Origin: a virus
IMG/VR virus record: IMGVR_UViG_3300020595_000193
Coordinates: 1 to 24,157 of that record
Reading direction: 5' to 3' (one strand)
DNA length: 24,157 bases
Both the position numbers and the translations under genes were made by a program. Shown here one piece after another: positions 1 to 24,157 of this stretch. The number at the start of each line of letters is the position of its first letter. The stretch's first letter is position 1. The notes below the pieces were generated by a model. It was not told the origin of the DNA and ran no database searches. It saw only the letters and a program-made list of their open reading frames with translations.

Positions 1-590
1 GCAGAAGGTTGGGCAGTAGGGCTAGACTCGTTTGCTGTGTATAAGTCAGTACCGCCACCGCCGCCACCACCAGAAGGTGTAGCCCAAGAGACAGCCCCTG
101 AACCATTTGTGGTAAGAACTTGGCCTGAAGCTGTACCATCTACATTAGGTAGAGTGTAGGTTTCACTTATTCTTACTGTATCTGATGTACTACCAATACT
201 TACTTGATCTGAGGCTGATGAATTAACATAATTACCGAAAGCAAGTGAACGAGCGTGAGTTGCTTCTGTTGATTGTCCTAGTGCAATACTTGAAGTTCCA
301 GAGGCTTTTGCATAGTAACCCGCAGAAAAAGAATTACTGCCAGAAGCTATAGTTCTAAAACCGATACTAGCCGCCCTTGAGCCTGATGCGCCATAGCTTG
401 TCGTATTATTAGAAACACTAAATGCCACTGAAGAAGTTCCAGATGCTCTTGAGTCAGGGCCAGCAAAACTGTCGAATCCTGTACTTACTGCACTGTCACC
501 TATAGCTATGGCATTAGTTCCTGTAGCACTAGGCTGTGCTGTAGGACTGCTTTCATTAGCATCATATAAGTCAGCACCGCCACCGCCAGA
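1..590 (-). repeat. Repeated hinge cassette in fibre C-terminal region
   Basis: A glycine run followed by [18 protein letters not shown] occurs twice in the fibre reading frame, at about 590-531 and again at about 71-1. The sequence between them is one beta-roll-like module with TLPNVDGT and a W-A-T/A-P/A-SGGG hinge. The second copy is cut by the left edge, so at least one more module probably follows outside the window. Confidence 0.7.
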
Positions 591-1829
591 AGCCGCCGCC
601 CAAGTCAAACCACCTGTATTGCCTGACTGTGCTGTTAGTACATAACCATTTGTTGGTGTATTGCTTACCTTGAGGTTAGCTTCGTCAACCACATTGTCAG
701 ATATTACTGTTGCACCATCGGCTGTTGATGTGACTTCGCCTGTGTGGTTTGGGTGAGTATAAGATGCACCGTCTGCCCCATCAGCTCCTGCTGGGCCTGT
801 AGCTCCAGTTGCACCTGTAGCTCCTGTAGCTCCATCACTTCCGTCAGCACCATCTACGCCAGCAGGACCTTGTGGTCCAGTAGCTCCAGTTGCTCCTGTA
901 GCTCCATCATTTCCGTCTGCCCCTGCTGGACCAGTTGGGCCTGTAGCTCCTTGCGGTCCAGTTGCTCCTGTAGCTCCAGTTGCGCCGTCTGAGCCATCTG
1001 CACCTGCTGGGCCTGCTGGACCAGCTACAGTTGAGGCCGCACCTTGAGGACCTGTAGCTCCAGTTGCACCTGTAGCTCCTGTAGCTCCTGTTGGACCTGC
1101 TACTGTACTATCAGCACCATCATTACCATCTGCACCTGCTGGGCCTGCTGGACCTGTTGCTCCAGTATTTCCTTGAGGGCCTGCTGGGCCTGTAGCTCCA
1201 GTATTTCCTTGAGGGCCTGTAGCTCCTTGAGGACCTGTAGCTCCTGCTGGACCAGCTACTGTACTGTCTGCACCGTCACTTCCGTCTGCCCCTGCTGGAC
1301 CTTGTGGACCTGTAGCTCCTGTAGCTCCTGTTGGACCTGCTACTGTACTATCAGCACCTTGTGGTCCTGTCGGTCCTGCTGGACCTGTTGCTCCAGTAGC
1401 TCCAGTTGGACCAGCTACAGTTGAGTCAGCACCCGCTGGACCTGTTGCACCTTGAGGACCTGTTGCCCCCACACCAGTTGGTATACCGAAAGCAAATGCA
1501 CCTACGCCGTTGTTGGCTGTAACAGTTGCTGTTGGACTACTTCCTGATGATAGCGATGATACAGTTACTGTAGCATCAGTTATGACATCTACAGCTTCTG
1601 CCGCATTCTTAGCGACGACTGCCGCGTCCTTTGCTACAACTGCCTCGTCTTTAGATGTTGTGGCTGTTGCCGCTGAAGCTGACGCACTAGCCGCACTGTT
1701 AGATGCTGAAGTTGCGCTGTTAGCCGCCGCTGTTTCACTAGCCGCCGCGTTGGATACTGATGCGTCAATAGCATTCGATTGTTCGTTAGTTACTCCAGAG
1801 TTGTTGTAGAAACTGGTCTTTGATGCCAT
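1..1829 (-). CDS. Collagen-like / beta-roll phage fibre (partial, runs off left edge)
   Basis: The frame is open from the ATG at 1829-1827 to the left edge with no stop, so the C-terminus is missing. GAGGA lies about 10 nt upstream of the ATG. The N-terminus ([17 protein letters not shown]) is followed by an Ala/Ser-rich stretch to about residue 95 that could form a trimeric coiled coil. Next come roughly 235 residues of Gly-X-Y collagen-like repeats (about 1480-768), a short linker ([11 protein letters not shown]), and a region rich in patterns like AIAIG, ASGTSS and SIALG (about 520-195). That last region resembles the left-handed beta-roll head repeats of YadA-type trimeric adhesins. A Gly-rich hinge and the start of a second copy of a DLY[12 protein letters not shown] segment reach the edge. 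Collagen-like phage proteins are usually trimeric fibres or appendages, so a receptor-binding or decoration role is inferred. The gene lies 5 bp after the head-tail adaptor, as the last visible member of the head operon. Confidence 0.85.
768..1480 (-). repeat. Collagen-like Gly-X-Y repeat tract with regular STVAGP interruptions
   Basis: On the minus strand the codons read as Gly-X-Y triplets such as GAT, GPQ, GPA and GAD. At DNA level this gives many near-identical 9-nt units (the complement of gctcctgta or gctccagtt). Five times the tract is broken by (D/A)STVAGP, near 1411, 1337, 1253, 1097 and 1021. Each break puts seven residues between glycines and so shifts the triplet phase. Such tracts expand and contract easily by recombination or polymerase slippage. 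Confidence 0.85.
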
Positions 1830-3037: not shown

Positions 3038-4173
3038 TTATGACAATCCTGTGATTGCAACTGAGTCTGCAAAGTTGGTATGTTTGCAGCTTACTTCTCC
3101 GACAATATGATGAGAATCTGAGTCACCTGTCTTGGCAAGTAGTGTGCGTGTAAATGGACGCAGCGTACAAGTTTTAAACATTGACGGATCTATCAATAGA
3201 GCGTGTGTTGATTTTAGCTGGCGGTTAAGCACAACTCTGTATTCGCCGTATGGGCTACATTACGGCACCTTCACCTAAGTTCGTTAATCTTAGATCGTCT
3301 GTTAAGACTGCTCATGCTTTCACATGAGATGAGACTATATCATCACTGCGTGTTGCAGTGTCTGGCGCTTCCACTCACTTGAGTGTACTTCCTCTCGGAA
3401 TAGTCGTTGCACCTTCCCCATTTTAACGGGGCTTGGCTCAGTATTACCTTATCTCTCGACGTAGGCTTCCACTGAGTTCACCAGATTTAATGTACGCTAG
3501 CCACGTCAACGTACAGATCAATCGCATTGACCAATGTCTTACCTTGAGAGATCTCACGGTTACGACCTGATGCTGCTGAGAAACCAGCGACTATTTGAGC
3601 ATCTGCGGTTTTGATCATAAAAGTATTTACGTCTGAACCGTTTGTGTAAGCAGTTTGACCAGCTTCCAATAGCTTTGCTTCTGTAAGAGCATCTGTTGCG
3701 TTTGAACCGGCATCTACAGTTGTAGAGATCTGGTTTAAGAAAGAAGTCATCTTCCGCGCTGTTGTAGCATTACCAACAACAGTTGCCTGGGCAACACCAA
3801 CTAATGCGTGTTCATAGTCGCGTTTGATCTCCTTCAACTTTTTTGCGAGGTTGAGGGCCGTTTCGGTTTTTCTTCCATATGTGGCAACAGCATCACTTGT
3901 AGCGGAGATGTTGAATCCCTTTGTTAAGATCTGTGTCGTATTAGTACGTTCTACTTGTGGGTCTAACGCAATCATCGTCGCTGTAGCCCCTTCCACCGCG
4001 GCATTCGTGCCAGCCGCTGCGAGACTGTCCTCCAAAAATGAGAATGTACGAGCAGATATCTTTTCGTTTTTACACATGGCTTGCATGGGCGTATCAAACG
4101 GAGAAATGTTACTCAAAATATCTGAGACGTCCTCTTTCTGGCCCACAGTTGTGTATGAAGTGAGTAGGGTCAT
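3038..4173 (-). CDS. Major capsid protein, split by a group I intron
   Basis: The coding sequence is complement(join(3038..3257,3509..4173)), giving 294 residues after splicing. Exon 1 encodes residues 1-221 plus two bases of codon 222. It contains FDTPMQ, AAVEGATAT, the helix ATYGRKTETALNLAKKLKEIKRD, and VVGNATTARK, which are hallmarks of the DUF5309/SU10-type HK97-fold major capsid family. Exon 2 resumes SPYGEYRVVLNRQL, then THALLIDPSMFKTCTLRPF, LLAKTGDSDSHHIVGE and ADSVAITGL, the conserved C-terminal half of the same family. Unspliced RNA would end after V-D-V-A-S-V-H, giving a 228-residue truncation without the C-terminal domain. AGGA lies about 12 nt before the ATG. The gene follows the scaffold by 45 bp. 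The total exon length of 885 nt is divisible by three, which supports the splice sites. Confidence 0.92.
3258..3508 (-). ncRNA. Group I self-splicing intron (subgroup IA-like, no endonuclease)
   Basis: This 251-nt insertion lies in the major capsid gene. In minus-strand order it shows several group I elements. P1: exon UGUACGU (3515-3509) pairs with GCGUACA (3497-3491), with the exon-terminal U3509 on G3497. A Q-like GAGCCAAGCC is at 3439-3430. P5 is CCCC/GGGG (3431-3428 with 3419-3416). An R-like GGUGCAACGACUA is at 3413-3401. Small P7.1/P7.2-type hairpins are TTCC/GGAA and CACTC/GAGTG. P8 is CACTGC/GCAGTG (3360-3344). An S-like AUGAUAUAGUC is at 3343-3333, whose UAGUC closes P7 with GACUA (3405-3401). 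P9 is CTCATG/CATGAG (3328-3311). The terminal G is 3258. P10: GGCUA in the P1 loop (3502-3498) pairs with the first five exon 2 bases UAGCC (3257-3253). Splicing restores the frame exactly. There is no room for a homing endonuclease gene. Confidence 0.93.
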
Positions 4174-9933: not shown

Positions 9934-12900
9934 CTATGCAGCTAATATGCCTGGTGCAGGGCTAAGTGCGCCTGGGGGCAGGGGTTGCTGCTCTTCTTCA
10001 GGTGGTTCTTCACTACGGGCCATCATTGCCAATATGACGGCAACTGCCATTGCTAACGAATGGTTAAAGAACTTGATGCCACTTTTGTTCTTAGAGTTAT
10101 CAAAAAGATGCTTTACTAACTTATAAGTGTTAGGTGCAACTTTCTTCATTATCTTTGGATGCATCATAGCAACTTGTAGAGCATTTACAGTTAACTCTGG
10201 AATAGACTGTTCGTAGTTACGTTGGTCTATTATTTGTTTTTCAAACGCTTTTACATCTTCATTAAACTGCTCGCTTCTTACACCGTTGGCTTTTGCCCTA
10301 CGTTGTCCGGCATTATAAGAGTCCATTAGTGATTTAGTTTGGCGTAGAGGTAACACTTGTCCTGTATCTGGATCTCTAAACGTTAGGTTCTTTTGGACTG
10401 CTAACATCTCTGCAATGATTTTATTCTGAGATCGTGCATCATTTGGTGTGTTAACTAAATCACCAAACACAGCTTCCAGGCTATTTATACCGGCTGTGTC
10501 GTCTTGGTTAGTTAAGTAGTTAAATACAAATTTATCACCCATAAACTGGTTTGTGTCTATGTCAGACCCAGCTATACCATGTGCAACTTCATGTGTCATA
10601 TACGAAAGAGACGCTAGGCCACTTACAGTACCACCAAACGCATCTACGCCACCTGGCATTATTGCCATAGCCTCTCGATTGTTTGGGTTGTAAACACCAA
10701 GGGCGCCCTCTGTAATAGTAGGGTCAGCCTTTTCCATATCTTTAAAAGATCGGTATAACTTTGGTATTATACTATATGCTTTAGCAAGATTTAATATTGC
10801 ACCAAAGTCTCTTATGCCATTTTCGTACTCAGAGCCTTCTTTGCCAATTTCGAATACAGCCTGTACAACAGGTATCTGTGCTCTTATTTCAGCTTCGGAT
10901 ACTGGTTGGGATCTATCATTATTTTTTGGCGCAGCATTCCTTTGTCCTCCTCCGAAGAATTGACCGAGGATGCCTTGTCTTGTTGCCCCTGGTAATCCTG
11001 CATTGGTAGGTGCTGACCCTCCTCCTGGAGATCCAGTTCGTCCAAGAGATCCCAATCGATTTCCTTGTCCAGAACGCTCCAATCTATTTGCGACTGCTTT
11101 TCTTGCAGCATTGGCGTAGTCTGGGGCTTCGTCATCTTTGTAACCACGGCTTTCTCCATCTTTTTGCTTTGCTGTATCATACAGACGTTTCTCAGGATAC
11201 CACATGAGAGCCTGTAAGTCACTCATTGTTATTGGTTCATTAGATATTGCTTTTAATTCTGGCGAGTCATTTAAACGATCTAAAGTCTGGGCAAAAACTG
11301 CTCGTATAAAGTTACGCTCTTTTGGGCCAGCAGGGGCTTCCACTTGACCATCAAGATATTTAGCCAAAGCATTACCGGCTTTTCGTAATTCTGGGCCACC
11401 TGGTATTGCATTTATCTGTTTTCTCCACTCTTTATCCATAGATAGCTTTGCAATAGCCTCTGATAACTGTTCAACTTTACTTTTTGACATGTTCTTAGTA
11501 GGTTTTATAGGGGCTTTAATAAACAGTGGTTTAAATGGCTTTAGGTCATAACTTTTCATCATACCTTTGATCTCAGTAGTTTTCTTTTTGATCATTGGTT
11601 TATTGATATTAACTAGACCACCGCGCCATCTACCTACAGTACGCATTAACCAGCGATCCATAGTTAGCTCGTCAAACTTACCATATAGATTTGAGTAGAA
11701 ACCACCGCCGATCTTTGGCCCTAAAATGGCTGCACCACGTATTAGTGTGTCTTTACCTTCGCCTGATATCTTTACATCATATTCTTTCTCAAGTTGTTTG
11801 AGAGGAAATTTAGAGTCCATAAAATCAGCTAAAAGTGCATGTGCACCATCGTCAGAATTAGACAGCCTGTTAAACTTATCTAACATTGTATGGTATTGGC
11901 CTAATCCAAAGTTAATACCTTTGGCTGCTTGTCCTATACCGGCGTCTGTAGGGAAACGACCTGTTTCTTTAAGTGTTTCGTAAACATCGAGTGCTAGTTC
12001 AAAGTTCTTATCTACTTTTAATCCGTTTGATGTAACGGCTGTAGCCCATATAAACTGCATTTTAGCTTTTGGGTCTGTAAGAACTTCTGGATGCAACTCA
12101 GCAACTGTTTTAAGAGCCTGATCAACTGTGCGACCATACCATCCAATTGCGTTTTGATTGTCTTTTAATGCTTCAAGTGCATCAGTAAAAGCAAAGTCAG
12201 CCAAGCGATCAATGTTTGCGTCATCAAGGGTACTAAGGTCTATACCTTCGCGTTCTTGTGCTTCAAGTGATTTTGCCTGGAGGTCTAATTTGAAATCGCG
12301 GCCTTTGTTGTATACTTTGTCTCGAGCCATTGTGAATGAGTTGTTAAGGTTAGTATCAAGAGCAACATCTGTTGTAGAGCCAAACTGTGGGGGAACGGGT
12401 GCAGATCTTTGCTCTTTGGTTTTTGCAGTTAGGATGTCTGTAGGTGTTACACTGTCTACATTAATTATTATTTCATTTTCCCCGATTGGGCCGCGTGATG
12501 TTATATCTGGTGATCCTAATATGTCAGACTTTTTAACCGTGTATGCTTGTAAATTACCTACACCTTCTACCCAAGGTAAATTTAGTGTAGCTTTGTAATT
12601 AGGATTTGTTGTAAAGGACTTTACCTCACCACTTGGTGTTTCACCTATCCTATATACAATCATTTCATCTGGCTGGTCTTTTAATAATGTCTGTGTTTTA
12701 TTGTATATACCCTTACGAACAGCAGTTAACTCCTCTGATGTAGATGGATCAACTATCTCTGTTGCATCTTTACCGTCAGCAATTCGTGTTGCTGCTTTAA
12801 CTGTATGTGCAGCGTACTCTGTGTCTTCATTAAGTACATGTCTAAATATATCAATATTATCTGAACCTGTTTGTAAAAACTTATTAAAAACAGGGCTAAC

Positions 12901-15711
12901 AACTCGTACTTGGTCATATACAGGGTGAGGTTTACCTCTAACTAAGATAGTTCCAATTTGCTCACCTAACTCGATTTCACCTTGGCTTGTAGGCCTTAAT
13001 CTAGGCTCACTAGTCTGCTTTGGATATGTTTGTAAGGTTACAGGTACATCAAAGCTGTTAGACAGAGAATAATGGTGTTTGCCCCGTGCTTCTGTAGACA
13101 CAATTGTTTCTGGGCCATCATAATCAACCCATTTCCATCCAGCTTTCTGCTTGAACAAGTTAGTTTTGATTTTGACGCCACCGTCTTGTTTAGTGCCTGG
13201 TTCTACCTGTACATCAGATGTTTCTAACGTAGGTTTACCATTTACAATTTTAATAGAGCCACCCTGGTAAGTATTTCCAGTTAAATCTTGTTTGCTGTCT
13301 AGATCTATATAGTTACCACCTTCAGCAGGGTTATTAACATTAAAGATACTTTGCATCTTAGCGTTGCTAAAAGGTACAGGTGCTACTCGCGCCTCTTTAG
13401 TTTTACCTTCAGTACGCTGCTTCTGCTGCTTAGTAATACGCTCGTACATTGGATCTATGATCTCTTGTACAAACCGTGGATCTACGGCTGCTAACTTCTT
13501 GTAGACTGCTTCAAATGTTTCTAGTGGCTTTGATCCTAAGTTACCGTCAAGTTCATCTATTGCCTGGCTCAGTGTCTTATAGTCACTTTCGCTCATGATG
13601 CCTTCGTTGTTAATCTTGTTCAGTGCTGTCTTCTGATCAGCGTTAAACTTCTTGTTAGCTTCAATGCCACGGTTGTAGTTTTCTTGGGTAGTAAACCTTG
13701 GGCCGAACTGTGGTTCTGCATCAAGTTTAGCGTTAGGGGGATAATACCCTGTCGCTGCACTTAATCTTTGCATTACATCTGACTGTTGTTGAGGCTCTGG
13801 GCTTTGAGGACTTTGTTGTGGTTGTGTTGTCTCACCTGGGATCGGCTGCGGCTTGTTTATAACCTGGGCTTGCACACTTGGGTCACTAATTATTTTAAGT
13901 TTTACCTCGCGGATAAGTTGTGTGAGGTTACTAACCGGACCACCATCGCGCACTGATATACGGTAGCTGTCAATAGAACGTTGTAATATAGGTAAAGGAT
14001 TATCTGCCTCTATTTTTCCTAAAGCATCAGCAACACCGGCTGTACTTAGGCCTGTTGAATTTTCCATTACAAACTGTGGCGCAGGGTTTGGATCGTTTGG
14101 ATCACCTTTTGGAGGAGCGCCCCTGTTATACTGAGATCTGTTGAGTTCTAGCTCTTGCATCTTCTGGTCTTCGATTGCAGCTTCAGCTTGCTGTGCTTCA
14201 GCTATTGCTTGCATACGCAGAGAAGGGCCAGTGGGGCTTGTCTGTGTTTCTCTGTTAGCTTTTGTGTTGTCTCTGATGTACTTGTTTACTGTAGATCGTC
14301 TACCGGTCACTGCATCAATAGCGCGGCCGCCGGCAAATGCGCCACCTTGTATTGCCAAGCCAGTACCACCACCGGCCATGTAAGCTGCACCTGTAGTTGC
14401 AAGGCCAGTAATGCCACCTTGGGAGCTGAACGGGTGTGTTAGGTTGTTCAGTGGGTTTGCTAGGTCTGTAACTTTTGATACGCCACCTTTGTAGCCAGAT
14501 TTGTGAAGAGCAGTAAGTTCGTTCATCTCTAGTAAAAGATTACGAGCCTTTTGGCCTTCGTATGTTTGTCCAGCAAGTCTAGCCAGGGCATTTAGTTCTT
14601 GTTCGCCTACCTGGCTTTTTGCTAAAGTTTTACCTTCTGCTAAAGCAGCTTCTGAAAGTATTTTATCTTCAAGATCTACAAGTGTATCTTGGTCAGTTAC
14701 TGCCACTAGCGGTTTTAAATCTTTAAAGACTTGCTTTAGATCTTTTTCAATTTGTGTGTGTGCTTTTGTTACAGCTTCTCGAGCGCCGTTAGTAGACTTA
14801 ACGTCAACGTCTTTAAGGTTGAGATTGTTTGCTTCTGCTACTTTTTTTAAACGGTTTGCAAACGCTGTTGCTGCGCGGTTTTGCTCTGTGTCATTAAAAG
14901 GCTTTGGGCGTACAGCATTTACTGTTGATAGGCCTGTCTTAACTGCACCGGCAGACGTACCACCAATAATACCTTCACCGACTGCTTGTCTTGGATCTAC
15001 ATTAAATCCAGCTTTAGTGTTTACTGTTGCGCCGGTTTGTTCAATGACACTCTGTAGGGACTCTGTTCCAAACTCTTTGAGTGCAGATGCAAAAATCTTA
15101 CCGCCACCTAGACCAAGTGAGTCAAGCAGTGCTATTCCAGCAGTAGACGTAGAGACATATAAGAAATCATCTTTATTTGGCTTGTCTCTACCTTGGTTTC
15201 TTGCGCGTTCTTCCGCTAATGGGCCTAAATGTTGTACAGCACTAAAAATAACAGGTGCTGCAATGCCACCTACAATGGCTCCTCCTGGGCCAAGTGTTGA
15301 GCCAACTGCTGCACCACCAGCTCTTGCCATCATCTGGCCGGCAAATTGTGCACCTTGCTCTATTGCCGCTTTTGGTAAGTACCTGTATGCATAAGAGCCA
15401 TCTTCATCGCCTTTGATAAACTTAGCTGATGATGACTCATAGCCTTCTGGGGCTTCAGTTAAGTTTGTTAGAAATTCACCAGTTTTTTCATAACCAAGAA
15501 CTCTTGCAGTCGCACCCATAGCGTCCAAAGATGAGTCTATACCTTGCGAAAAAGCCTCTTTATAGCCGCCTGTAGGACTGTTAATGCCAGTGTTGTTATT
15601 CTTTGGCTGGGGGTTTAGTTTATCGTTTAGAGCGCGTATAGCCCCTTCACGGTTGGGGCCAGATACTTTGTACTTCTTACCATCAGGCGCAAGTATAGTG
15701 AAAGTGGGCAT
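9934..15711 (-). CDS. Giant internal/DNA-ejection-type protein (1,925 aa) with possible enzymatic segments
   Basis: GGAGG lies 9 nt before the ATG. The N-terminus (MPTFTILAPDGKKYKVSGPN) is a short ubiquitin-like/GAxRALN module often seen at the start of large phage virion proteins. Gly/Ala-rich hydrophobic stretches at about residues 128-158 and 428-460 could insert in membranes, and a 14-residue hydrophobic run near 1885-1900 precedes an acidic, Pro-rich tail. A Q/P-rich linker lies near 625-640. Around 1005-1090 there is an ADP-ribosyltransferase-like pattern: YR at 1020-1021, SFTT at 1032-1035, ENE at 1078-1080. Around 1328-1368, ILGPKIGGGFY and LTMDRWLMRTVGRW form a segment that recurs in large polyvalent phage proteins. 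HEVAH at 1707-1711 is an HExxH zinc-protease motif. By size and position it is probably ejected with the DNA, like T7 gp16 or N4-type giant proteins. The enzymatic activities are inference. Confidence 0.8.
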   Translation of the reverse strand: MPTFTILAPDGKKYKVSGPNREGAIRALNDKLNPQPKNNNTGINSPTGGYKEAFSQGIDSSLDAMGATARVLGYEKTGEFLTNLTEAPEGYESSSAKFIKGDEDGSYAYRYLPKAAIEQGAQFAGQMMARAGGAAVGSTLGPGGAIVGGIAAPVIFSAVQHLGPLAEERARNQGRDKPNKDDFLYVSTSTAGIALLDSLGLGGGKIFASALKEFGTESLQSVIEQTGATVNTKAGFNVDPRQAVGEGIIGGTSAGAVKTGLSTVNAVRPKPFNDTEQNRAATAFANRLKKVAEANNLNLKDVDVKSTNGAREAVTKAHTQIEKDLKQVFKDLKPLVAVTDQDTLVDLEDKILSEAALAEGKTLAKSQVGEQELNALARLAGQTYEGQKARNLLLEMNELTALHKSGYKGGVSKVTDLANPLNNLTHPFSSQGGITGLATTGAAYMAGGGTGLAIQGGAFAGGRAIDAVTGRRSTVNKYIRDNTKANRETQTSPTGPSLRMQAIAEAQQAEAAIEDQKMQELELNRSQYNRGAPPKGDPNDPNPAPQFVMENSTGLSTAGVADALGKIEADNPLPILQRSIDSYRISVRDGGPVSNLTQLIREVKLKIISDPSVQAQVINKPQPIPGETTQPQQSPQSPEPQQQSDVMQRLSAATGYYPPNAKLDAEPQFGPRFTTQENYNRGIEANKKFNADQKTALNKINNEGIMSESDYKTLSQAIDELDGNLGSKPLETFEAVYKKLAAVDPRFVQEIIDPMYERITKQQKQRTEGKTKEARVAPVPFSNAKMQSIFNVNNPAEGGNYIDLDSKQDLTGNTYQGGSIKIVNGKPTLETSDVQVEPGTKQDGGVKIKTNLFKQKAGWKWVDYDGPETIVSTEARGKHHYSLSNSFDVPVTLQTYPKQTSEPRLRPTSQGEIELGEQIGTILVRGKPHPVYDQVRVVSPVFNKFLQTGSDNIDIFRHVLNEDTEYAAHTVKAATRIADGKDATEIVDPSTSEELTAVRKGIYNKTQTLLKDQPDEMIVYRIGETPSGEVKSFTTNPNYKATLNLPWVEGVGNLQAYTVKKSDILGSPDITSRGPIGENEIIINVDSVTPTDILTAKTKEQRSAPVPPQFGSTTDVALDTNLNNSFTMARDKVYNKGRDFKLDLQAKSLEAQEREGIDLSTLDDANIDRLADFAFTDALEALKDNQNAIGWYGRTVDQALKTVAELHPEVLTDPKAKMQFIWATAVTSNGLKVDKNFELALDVYETLKETGRFPTDAGIGQAAKGINFGLGQYHTMLDKFNRLSNSDDGAHALLADFMDSKFPLKQLEKEYDVKISGEGKDTLIRGAAILGPKIGGGFYSNLYGKFDELTMDRWLMRTVGRWRGGLVNINKPMIKKKTTEIKGMMKSYDLKPFKPLFIKAPIKPTKNMSKSKVEQLSEAIAKLSMDKEWRKQINAIPGGPELRKAGNALAKYLDGQVEAPAGPKERNFIRAVFAQTLDRLNDSPELKAISNEPITMSDLQALMWYPEKRLYDTAKQKDGESRGYKDDEAPDYANAARKAVANRLERSGQGNRLGSLGRTGSPGGGSAPTNAGLPGATRQGILGQFFGGGQRNAAPKNNDRSQPVSEAEIRAQIPVVQAVFEIGKEGSEYENGIRDFGAILNLAKAYSIIPKLYRSFKDMEKADPTITEGALGVYNPNNREAMAIMPGGVDAFGGTVSGLASLSYMTHEVAHGIAGSDIDTNQFMGDKFVFNYLTNQDDTAGINSLEAVFGDLVNTPNDARSQNKIIAEMLAVQKNLTFRDPDTGQVLPLRQTKSLMDSYNAGQRRAKANGVRSEQFNEDVKAFEKQIIDQRNYEQSIPELTVNALQVAMMHPKIMKKVAPNTYKLVKHLFDNSKNKSGIKFFNHSLAMAVAVILAMMARSEEPPEEEQQPLPPGALSPAPGILAA

Positions 15712-22619: not shown

Positions 22620-24157
22620 TTACTCACAAGTTCTCAGACCCGTGTATGGATCGTGGTAACAAGCGCCACCTTCGTGCTCATCGACAAACGTATTGTCATC
22701 AACCACTTCGACAACTGGTGATGCTGTTGCTACCTCTTCAGATGATGCAGCGTTCAATATGCCAAAACGCTTTCCGGATGCCCTAAAGGTCGTGCAGCCG
22801 CTGGCACGTCCGTCGTATGCTTGCATGTAGACGTCTTTGAACTGTTCCCAGGTAACTTCGTCACCCACGTTACAGGTCTTTGAACAAGCGCTGTCCACGT
22901 ACTTAGATGCCAGGTTAAGCACCTTAACGTGGTCAAACACTGACAGCTCGTCTGCGGTCTTACCTTTGACACCAAAGTCTCGATAGCCGTAGTCCTCGAT
23001 GCGTTCTACTCTAGGGCCATCAAAGGTCTGGATAGTCCTGTCGTAGTAGTGGCTGAACACTGGCTCTATGCCACTAGACACATTGTCTGCGGATAGACTG
23101 ATTGTCCCTGTAGGTGCGACTGACAACAAGTGACTGTTGCGTATACCGTGCTCACGAATGTCTGCTCGGATATCATCTGGCAGCGTCATGCAGAACTCAC
23201 TGGCCAACATCAGTTCCTCGTACAACGGAAACGGGCCTTTCTCTTTGGCCAGCTCTATTGATGTACGATAGACCTCGTCACGTATAGTTCGCATGATACG
23301 CTCTAGCTCCATCATAAAGCCATTGGATCCAAACGTGTAGCCCAGCGCTTCGATAGCGTTTGCAACACCTGTAACACCCAAGCCCATACGACGCTTTGAT
23401 TTAGCTTCCTGTTCTTGTTGTGGTAGTGGGAAGATTGCACGATCGACTACATTATCCATTGCTCTTACGACCGCTGGTATGTCTTTGATTAGATTACTGT
23501 AGAGAAACGCTCTGGCGCCCTGGGCATCTGTGTGCACGTACTTCACCAGGTTAAACGACCCAAGCAAACAAGCGCCGTTTGGTGGCAAAGGTTGCTCGGC
23601 ACATGGGTTCGAACTGGCTATAGTTTCACAGTACCAAAGGTTGTTCTTTGCGTTGATGCGATCCATGAATAGTATACCAGGCTCTGCCCAATCCCAGGTG
23701 CTGCGTAAGATATCATCCCACAGTGCTCTAGCGTCAATTGTCTTGTGTACTTGGCCTTCGAACACCAGGTCAAAGTCCGTGCCGTCTTTCACTGCTTGCA
23801 TAAACTTATCAGTCACACCGACACTCATGTTGAACTGTGTCAGGTCAGTGCTGTTGTTCTTTGCGTGTACAAACTCTTGGATGTCAGGGTGGTCAACTCG
23901 CAGTACACCCATTTGTGCTCCACGTCTATGACCGGCAGATGCTATCGTCTTACATATAGAGTCAAAGATACCCATGAATGACATTGGGCCACTAGATCTA
24001 CTGTCTAGGCTCTTGATCAACGCACCGTGTGGTCTAAGTGTACTGAAGTCGTATCCAATACCACCACCCATCTGCATCGTCTTTGCAGCGTTCTTAGCAG
24101 CATCCATGATGCCGTTCATACTGTCGTCTATCGTTGCAGACACAAAGCAGTTGTACG
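22620..24157 (-). CDS. nrdJ: Class II (B12-dependent) ribonucleotide reductase, C-terminal part
   Basis: The frame is open to the right edge, so the N-terminus is missing. The GTG at 24143 is internal (F-V-S) and not the start. The fragment begins YNCFVSATIDDSMNG, whose Cys is the first active-site cysteine of NrdJ, followed by MGGGIGYDFSTLRPHGA. NPCAEQPLPPNGAC (near 23610-23568) holds the Asn, thiyl-radical Cys and Glu, and, 11 residues later, the second redox Cys. VAPTGTISLSADNVSSGIEP and CTTFRASGKRFGIL are also family motifs. It ends with a pair of cysteines (C-Y-H-D-P and R-T-C-E) that would pass electrons from thioredoxin or glutaredoxin. The enzyme reduces ribonucleotides using adenosylcobalamin, with oxygen or without, and feeds phage DNA synthesis. 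The cobalamin presumably comes from the host. Confidence 0.92.
   Translation of the reverse strand, partial: YNCFVSATIDDSMNGIMDAAKNAAKTMQMGGGIGYDFSTLRPHGALIKSLDSRSSGPMSFMGIFDSICKTIASAGHRRGAQMGVLRVDHPDIQEFVHAKNNSTDLTQFNMSVGVTDKFMQAVKDGTDFDLVFEGQVHKTIDARALWDDILRSTWDWAEPGILFMDRINAKNNLWYCETIASSNPCAEQPLPPNGACLLGSFNLVKYVHTDAQGARAFLYSNLIKDIPAVVRAMDNVVDRAIFPLPQQEQEAKSKRRMGLGVTGVANAIEALGYTFGSNGFMMELERIMRTIRDEVYRTSIELAKEKGPFPLYEELMLASEFCMTLPDDIRADIREHGIRNSHLLSVAPTGTISLSADNVSSGIEPVFSHYYDRTIQTFDGPRVERIEDYGYRDFGVKGKTADELSVFDHVKVLNLASKYVDSACSKTCNVGDEVTWEQFKDVYMQAYDGRASGCTTFRASGKRFGILNAASSEEVATASPVVEVVDDNTFVDEHEGGACYHDPYTGLRTCE

Follow-up and report, generated by a model that had tools for sequence, protein, structure and literature searches.

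The major capsid protein (MCP) gene of a probably marine, uncultured phage is interrupted by a genuine compact group I intron of IA-like type, which carries no endonuclease gene. The gene is read on the minus strand of a 24,157-nt virus record, the whole of which we refer to as the window. We consider it highly probable that this intron is self-splicing, that it moves by repair or recombination during co-infection, and that its family has repeatedly colonised the SU10-type capsid gene, at no fewer than eight sites. We infer its splicing activity and the mechanism of its mobility from sequence.

Exons and boundaries of the capsid intron

An open reading frame at 3487-4173 (minus strand, 228 aa) covers the first three quarters of an SU10-type major capsid protein, and another at 3038-3232 (minus strand) covers the last quarter. 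The stop codon of the former falls 22 nt into the insert, and the capsid protein resumes in a different frame from position 3257. The original prediction had described two frames, a gap of 251 nt and group I core elements on the minus strand, all of which are present. Excision of 3508..3258 joins both frames into a single protein of 294 aa, which matches the Pfam family SU10_MCP (PF17236) at 239.5 bits (E = 7e-71) over profile positions 3-291 of 292. Taken separately, the pieces score far less well (1.5e-46 for exon 1 and 1.4e-12 for the exon 2 fragment). Exon 1 (3509..4173, minus strand, 665 nt) encodes residues 1-221 plus two bases of codon 222 and also matches phrog_1328 (major head protein), while exon 2 (3038..3257, minus strand) is 220 nt long including the stop. 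The predicted ligated junction reads ...CTGTACGT followed by TAGCCC.... Portal and scaffold genes precede the split gene and an SU10 adaptor gene follows it, a placement that identifies it as the major capsid gene. Without splicing, the mRNA would yield a truncated capsid protein of 228 aa, from which it is sound to conclude that each virion would depend on splicing.

A covariance-model search of the minus strand with the Rfam group I model had been suggested as a check on the assignment. Searching the window with cmscan matched RF00028 at 3538-3311 (minus strand) with 86.6 bits (gathering cut-off, 50 bits; E = 4.1e-21) over the full model (1-253), and there was no second Rfam match above cut-off anywhere in the 24,157 nt. 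Together with the 294-aa joined product, this match bears out the claim that the major capsid gene holds a group I intron. The intron (3258..3508, minus strand, 251 nt) is a phase 2 insertion in codon 222, supported by the RF00028 match, its splice boundaries, empty sites in relatives and covariation. No open reading frame of at least 60 aa is confined to it on either strand, and it encodes no homing endonuclease.

Two pairings fix both ends of the intron and place it at 3508..3258. The last seven nucleotides of exon 1 (UGUACGU, 3509..3515, minus strand) form the 5' strand of P1, closing on the splice-site U, and pair with the internal guide sequence GCGUACA (3491..3497, minus strand; intron positions 12-18) with a U.G wobble at the splice site. 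The intron strand of P10, GGCUA (3498..3502, minus strand; intron positions 7-11), pairs with the first five nucleotides of exon 2, UAGCC (3257-3253). The final base of the intron is a G (...UAAUG, then UAGCC). An independent spliced-alignment dynamic programme, whose sole splice rule was a U before the intron and a G at its end, picked the same end points of 3508 and 3258, which are thus exactly those originally proposed.

The same features recur in related introns, which we name by their insertion site in window residue numbering. The P1 helix with its U.G pair scores a mean of 5.2 at modelled sites, against 3.0 for exon/intron pairs drawn from different sites. A P10 of at least 4 bp is found in 27 of 36 site-221 introns, the site of the window intron, and in 10/10 site-18 introns. 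Site-106 introns have a P10 that is non-contiguous with P1 in all but one of 31 cases, by eye offset by about one base. Within the window intron, an in-frame UAA (3487..3489, minus strand; intron nt 20-22) would stop ribosomes ahead of the ribozyme core. Group I introns are known to have in-frame stops ahead of the core (PMC3073962), and one is present in all 103 of the 103 modelled introns (vs 81 per cent in the other frames).

Other genes were seen in the window besides those of the capsid region. The structural region holds a 1925-aa open reading frame (9934-15711, minus strand) without a Pfam match, possibly a large internal virion protein. A long collagen-like protein with GATGPxG repeats (3-1829, minus strand), probably a tail fibre, lies by the virion genes and is truncated at the contig end, as is a ribonucleotide reductase large-chain barrel domain (PF02867, 3.7e-108) at 22620-24155 (minus strand).

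Covariation in the ribozyme core

We aligned 67 non-redundant homologous introns and counted base pairs on the structure drawn on the window sequence, from P3 to P9.2 and including the P3/P7 pseudoknot. Pairing was retained in 94.6 per cent of 3779 cells, compared with 74.6 per cent when shuffled and 33-44 per cent when slid. Cells changed on both sides numbered 740, against a mean of 194 in shuffled data and 70-120 when slid by one to three columns, and such changes were seen in 44 of the 58 pairs.

All of the helices lie on the minus strand. P3 (3485-3479 with 3367-3361) encloses P4-P6 and the 5' strand of P7; it is paired in 99.8 per cent of cells and changes on both sides in four of its seven pairs. 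P4 (3476-3471 with 3442-3437) is followed by P5 (3466-3463 with 3449-3446), the weakest helix at 72 per cent paired across homologues. P6 (3436-3435 with 3413-3412) and P6a (3431-3428 with 3419-3416) are both 100 per cent paired with compensatory changes. The G-binding helix P7 (3405-3401 with 3337-3333), pseudoknotted with P3, is likewise paired in all 67 sequences, nine of which replace one U-A pair with C-G. P8 (3360-3355 with 3349-3344) changes on both sides in six of its six pairs. The 3' domain of the alignment comprises P9 (3328-3323 with 3316-3311), P9.1 (3308-3305 with 3300-3297) and P9.2 (3294-3289 with 3279-3274). P5, P7, P8 and P9 had each been named in the original prediction, and the 67-intron structure contains all four. 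Between P7 and P3 are two more covarying stems, P7.1 (3400-3397 with 3392-3389) and P7.2 (3384-3381 with 3376-3373). Extra stems of this kind are typical of the subgroup IA introns of phages, and by them we would class the intron as IA-like.

A splicing pathway can be proposed. Once the transcript has folded, the 5' splice site would be marked by P1 with its U.G pair, and the 3' splice site by P10, in which the guide sequence pairs with the start of exon 2. An exogenous guanosine held by P7 would attack the 5' splice site, after which the U at the end of exon 1 would attack after the terminal G, ligating the exons into the mRNA for the 294-aa capsid protein. The early in-frame stop would keep ribosomes off the ribozyme core. 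Since splicing itself is deduced from sequence, and the exon 2 reading frame has a possible internal GTG start, one could instead propose that the intron is a degenerate remnant incapable of splicing, and that either the capsid is made as two polypeptides, one of 228 aa and one covering the C-terminal part, or the contig stems from a defective genome. We judge this very improbable. The core helices, the G-site of P7, P1 with its U.G pair, P10 and the terminal G are all intact, excision restores a full-length SU10 MCP in both the window and the modelled relatives, and the intron is 99-100 per cent conserved in several independent contigs. Moreover, the SU10 MCP is a single fold, which the split would cut.

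A family of introns in SU10 capsid genes

MCP searches identified relatives with 89-98 per cent protein identity that have no insert at the site occupied in the window, the nearest of these intronless relatives being 98 per cent identical. The intron recurs with 251/251 identical positions in a different metagenome, on contig L063 (one record with L086), and a core-motif scan added six contigs whose copies are 98.8-99.2 per cent identical to it. A diverged intron is present at the same codon in L084, where exon 2 starts with CAGU and the guide has ACUG, such that P10 has changed on both sides. The window is a metagenomic contig from a phage that was never cultured, and an assembly artefact or sequencing error could in principle have put foreign sequence into its capsid gene. 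These independent copies, together with the diverged homologue in L084, refute that explanation and leave it a negligible probability.

We also searched for the unoccupied target itself. By sequence pattern, the exact window-type junction, whether spliced or empty, was absent from IMG/VR viral contigs; the missing spliced form, like the poor pairing of P5, counts against the proposed scheme. A looser junction pattern recovered intact SU10 MCPs with a complete site-221 target, in L306 and in four contigs agreeing over the compared junction stretch, and we therefore abandoned the notion that no susceptible target is left empty. Likewise, the near-invariant exon 1 codons CTG TAC GT of site-221 intron alleles were set aside as an effect of ascertainment, most of these alleles having been found with the P1 pattern.

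To describe the wider family we collected 270 loci with SU10 MCP genes from a P1-element scan, a second-site element scan and MCP searches. The 219 distinct gene models include 87 with one intron, 22 with two, four with three and two with four; the loci were gathered with intron-biased patterns, and these counts are not population frequencies. Insertion sites include residues 6, 18, 22, 25, 50-58, 86, 106 and 221, a numbering that is approximate in diverged proteins. Spliced-alignment 'introns' at residues 278-283 were discarded because they had no group I core, and one at residue 15 (L101) was left out of the counts. Rfam matches confirm four introns per MCP gene in L147 and L173, which are separate IMG/VR contigs, and three in each of L141, L146, L152 and L207. 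The five exons of L173 measure 56, 96, 167, 346 and 217 nt.

Across 21 whole contigs (15-42 kb), group I matches occurred in 18 and totalled 25, and the number in each contig equalled the number of MCP introns modelled. These contigs were picked via their MCP loci, so the result concerns where introns lie within contigs and not their abundance. In the loci to which it was applied, a profile of the intron family matched capsid genes exclusively, and searches of the 21 contigs for three endonuclease families (HNH, HNH_3 and GIY-YIG) found none, though some of the contigs may be incomplete. As a tentative reading, and one we would put at somewhat under even odds, the SU10 capsid genes of uncultured phages, most of them of marine type, harbor a specialised, endonuclease-free, capsid-restricted intron lineage. 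This lineage would have moved among at least eight sites, reaching as many as four copies in one gene, and would spread between phages with co-conversion tracts of only a few dozen nucleotides.

Several individual loci were also recorded. The one non-SU10 capsid gene among the family-profile matches is in L188 (4149-5240, minus strand), an HK97-type gene (PF05065, 5.6e-56). Although from an unrelated capsid family, it has the same kind of insertion, an intron that scores above the Rfam cut-off, and farther along a second profile match that is partial. The site-106 intron of L211 (5124-5652, minus strand) is 519 nt long because its P8 region holds an open reading frame of about 93 aa with a signal-peptide-like start, no Pfam match and no recognisable endonuclease. 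The collection of bacterial and archaeal genomes yielded a single relative, L294 (PBDH01000050), in a Gammaproteobacteria metagenome-assembled genome, which gives a weak hint of the host.

Horizontal spread and known capsid introns

The intron of the window is 99.2 per cent identical to those of L083 and L089, while the spliced coding sequences (CDSs) are only 80 per cent identical. Identity is 96 per cent in the 50-nt exon flanks on both sides, and mostly 68-86 per cent farther out. A second comparison is between L141 (L141:6320-7975), with three introns, and L173, with four. Their CDSs differ at six of 882 positions, and all six differences fall within about 24 nt (CDS positions 48-71) that bracket the extra intron at 56. 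The contrast in the first comparison and the clustered differences in the second indicate that the introns have recently spread horizontally, with co-conversion of short tracts. In addition, intronless near relatives have a serine codon TCN directly after the site, where the window has AGC; with the raised flank identity and the L141/L173 cluster, this points to short-tract gene conversion. The intron spreads in the manner of a homing intron, with co-conversion of flanking exons. Most likely it would enter new genomes during co-infection, through recombination or the repair of double-strand breaks, taking short stretches of the exon flanks with it.

On the MCP tree, the presence of a site-221 intron needs 30 changes, of which at least 20 are forced by starred branches, and that of a site-106 intron needs 20 (gains and losses are counted alike in both). 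On the tree of the introns themselves, sequences cluster by site (23 changes vs 57 when shuffled). Introns of site 106 are intermixed with those of site 221 in this tree, with at least six and at least three starred-branch changes, respectively, in an alignment of 179 columns that resolves it weakly. Because the two sites interleave, the capsid gene has probably been colonised several times.

Spread to new sites by reverse splicing rather than homing, through insertion at the RNA level, reverse transcription and recombination, is an alternative for the mobility part of the scheme only. It would explain the several sites within one gene, and it is consistent with the interleaving of site-106 and site-221 introns, with the lack of HNH or GIY-YIG domains in the 21 contigs, and with the length of the modelled introns, mostly 220-320 nt, which is too short for an endonuclease gene. 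However, the weak resolution of the 179-column tree tells against leaning on the interleaving, and the flank identity and clustered differences are the footprint of gene conversion at the DNA level, at least for spread to the same site. We regard reverse splicing as rather unlikely and prefer repair or recombination during co-infection, in which the agent of mobility may be a trans-acting endonuclease or plain recombination, with reverse splicing a further candidate for jumps to new sites.

The placement of an intron in a capsid gene had been called unusual, which overstates its rarity. Group I introns in capsid genes are already published for LittleE (PMC3706429) and for crAss-like phages (PMC7886860), and the window intron is a clear further example, not an unprecedented one. 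Splicing of the LittleE intron was proven by RT-PCR and N-terminal sequencing, and the same paper describes a tail intron in BAKA/Optimus and refers to another capsid intron, that of the lactococcal phage Tuc2009 (PMC3706429). Like ours, the intron of LittleE gp13 is of group I type in a major capsid gene, follows an exon ending in U, ends in G and is absent from other relatives; in contrast, it is about 819 nt long with a LAGLIDADG-like open reading frame in an HK97-type gene, and the window intron is 251 nt with none in an SU10-type gene (PMC3706429). The MCP genes of crAss-like Delta and Zeta phages carry group I introns, and a Zeta MCP reading frame in five fragments is comparable to the four-intron genes of L147 and L173 (PMC7886860). 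The crAss-like introns are spread over many genes and were detected via their endonuclease domains (PMC7886860), whereas the present family is compact, without endonucleases and limited to the MCP gene in the contigs tested.

Other viruses share some of these traits. Phage group I introns, up to three of them per gene, are known from Twort (Landthaler and Shub 1999, as cited in PMC11878797) and from Bastillevirinae. Most of the Bastillevirinae introns also resemble subgroup IA, but they interrupt genes such as those for DNA polymerase and terminase, average 802 nt, and many of them have an internal open reading frame (PMC11878797). Short group I introns (about 206 nt) interrupt essential genes of Jug phages as well, where, as in Bastillevirinae, a gene may have more than one intron and metatranscriptome reads support 37 of 76 predicted introns; there, unlike in our single gene, the infestation extends across genomes of 360-402 kb with many endonucleases (PMC12363816). 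In Faustovirus E12, a giant virus of amoebae, the major capsid gene contains several group I introns, though these are long, some are spliceosome-like and two have GIY-YIG reading frames (PMC6247863). In open-licence papers we found no description of an endonuclease-free intron family that occupies many sites in the SU10 capsid gene and is restricted to it.

The family amounts to a natural series of 0-, 1-, 2-, 3- and 4-intron alleles of one gene, in which the L141/L173 pair is essentially one intron and its flanks apart. With this allele set, both the movement of endonuclease-free group I introns and the cost of introns in a gene that would need splicing for every virion become testable.

The closest match in the phage collection is in the SU10-type MCP gene of C72C1 (OQ984150, L175:3665-4866), with 82 per cent identity to the window intron over 222 nt; its intron is inserted at about residue 106, compared with 221 in the window. 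It had been predicted that a gene caller would break such a gene, and this capsid gene is indeed annotated as two 'major head protein' CDSs. The intron went unrecognised in the OQ984150 record, in which small opposite-strand open reading frames are called in and near it.
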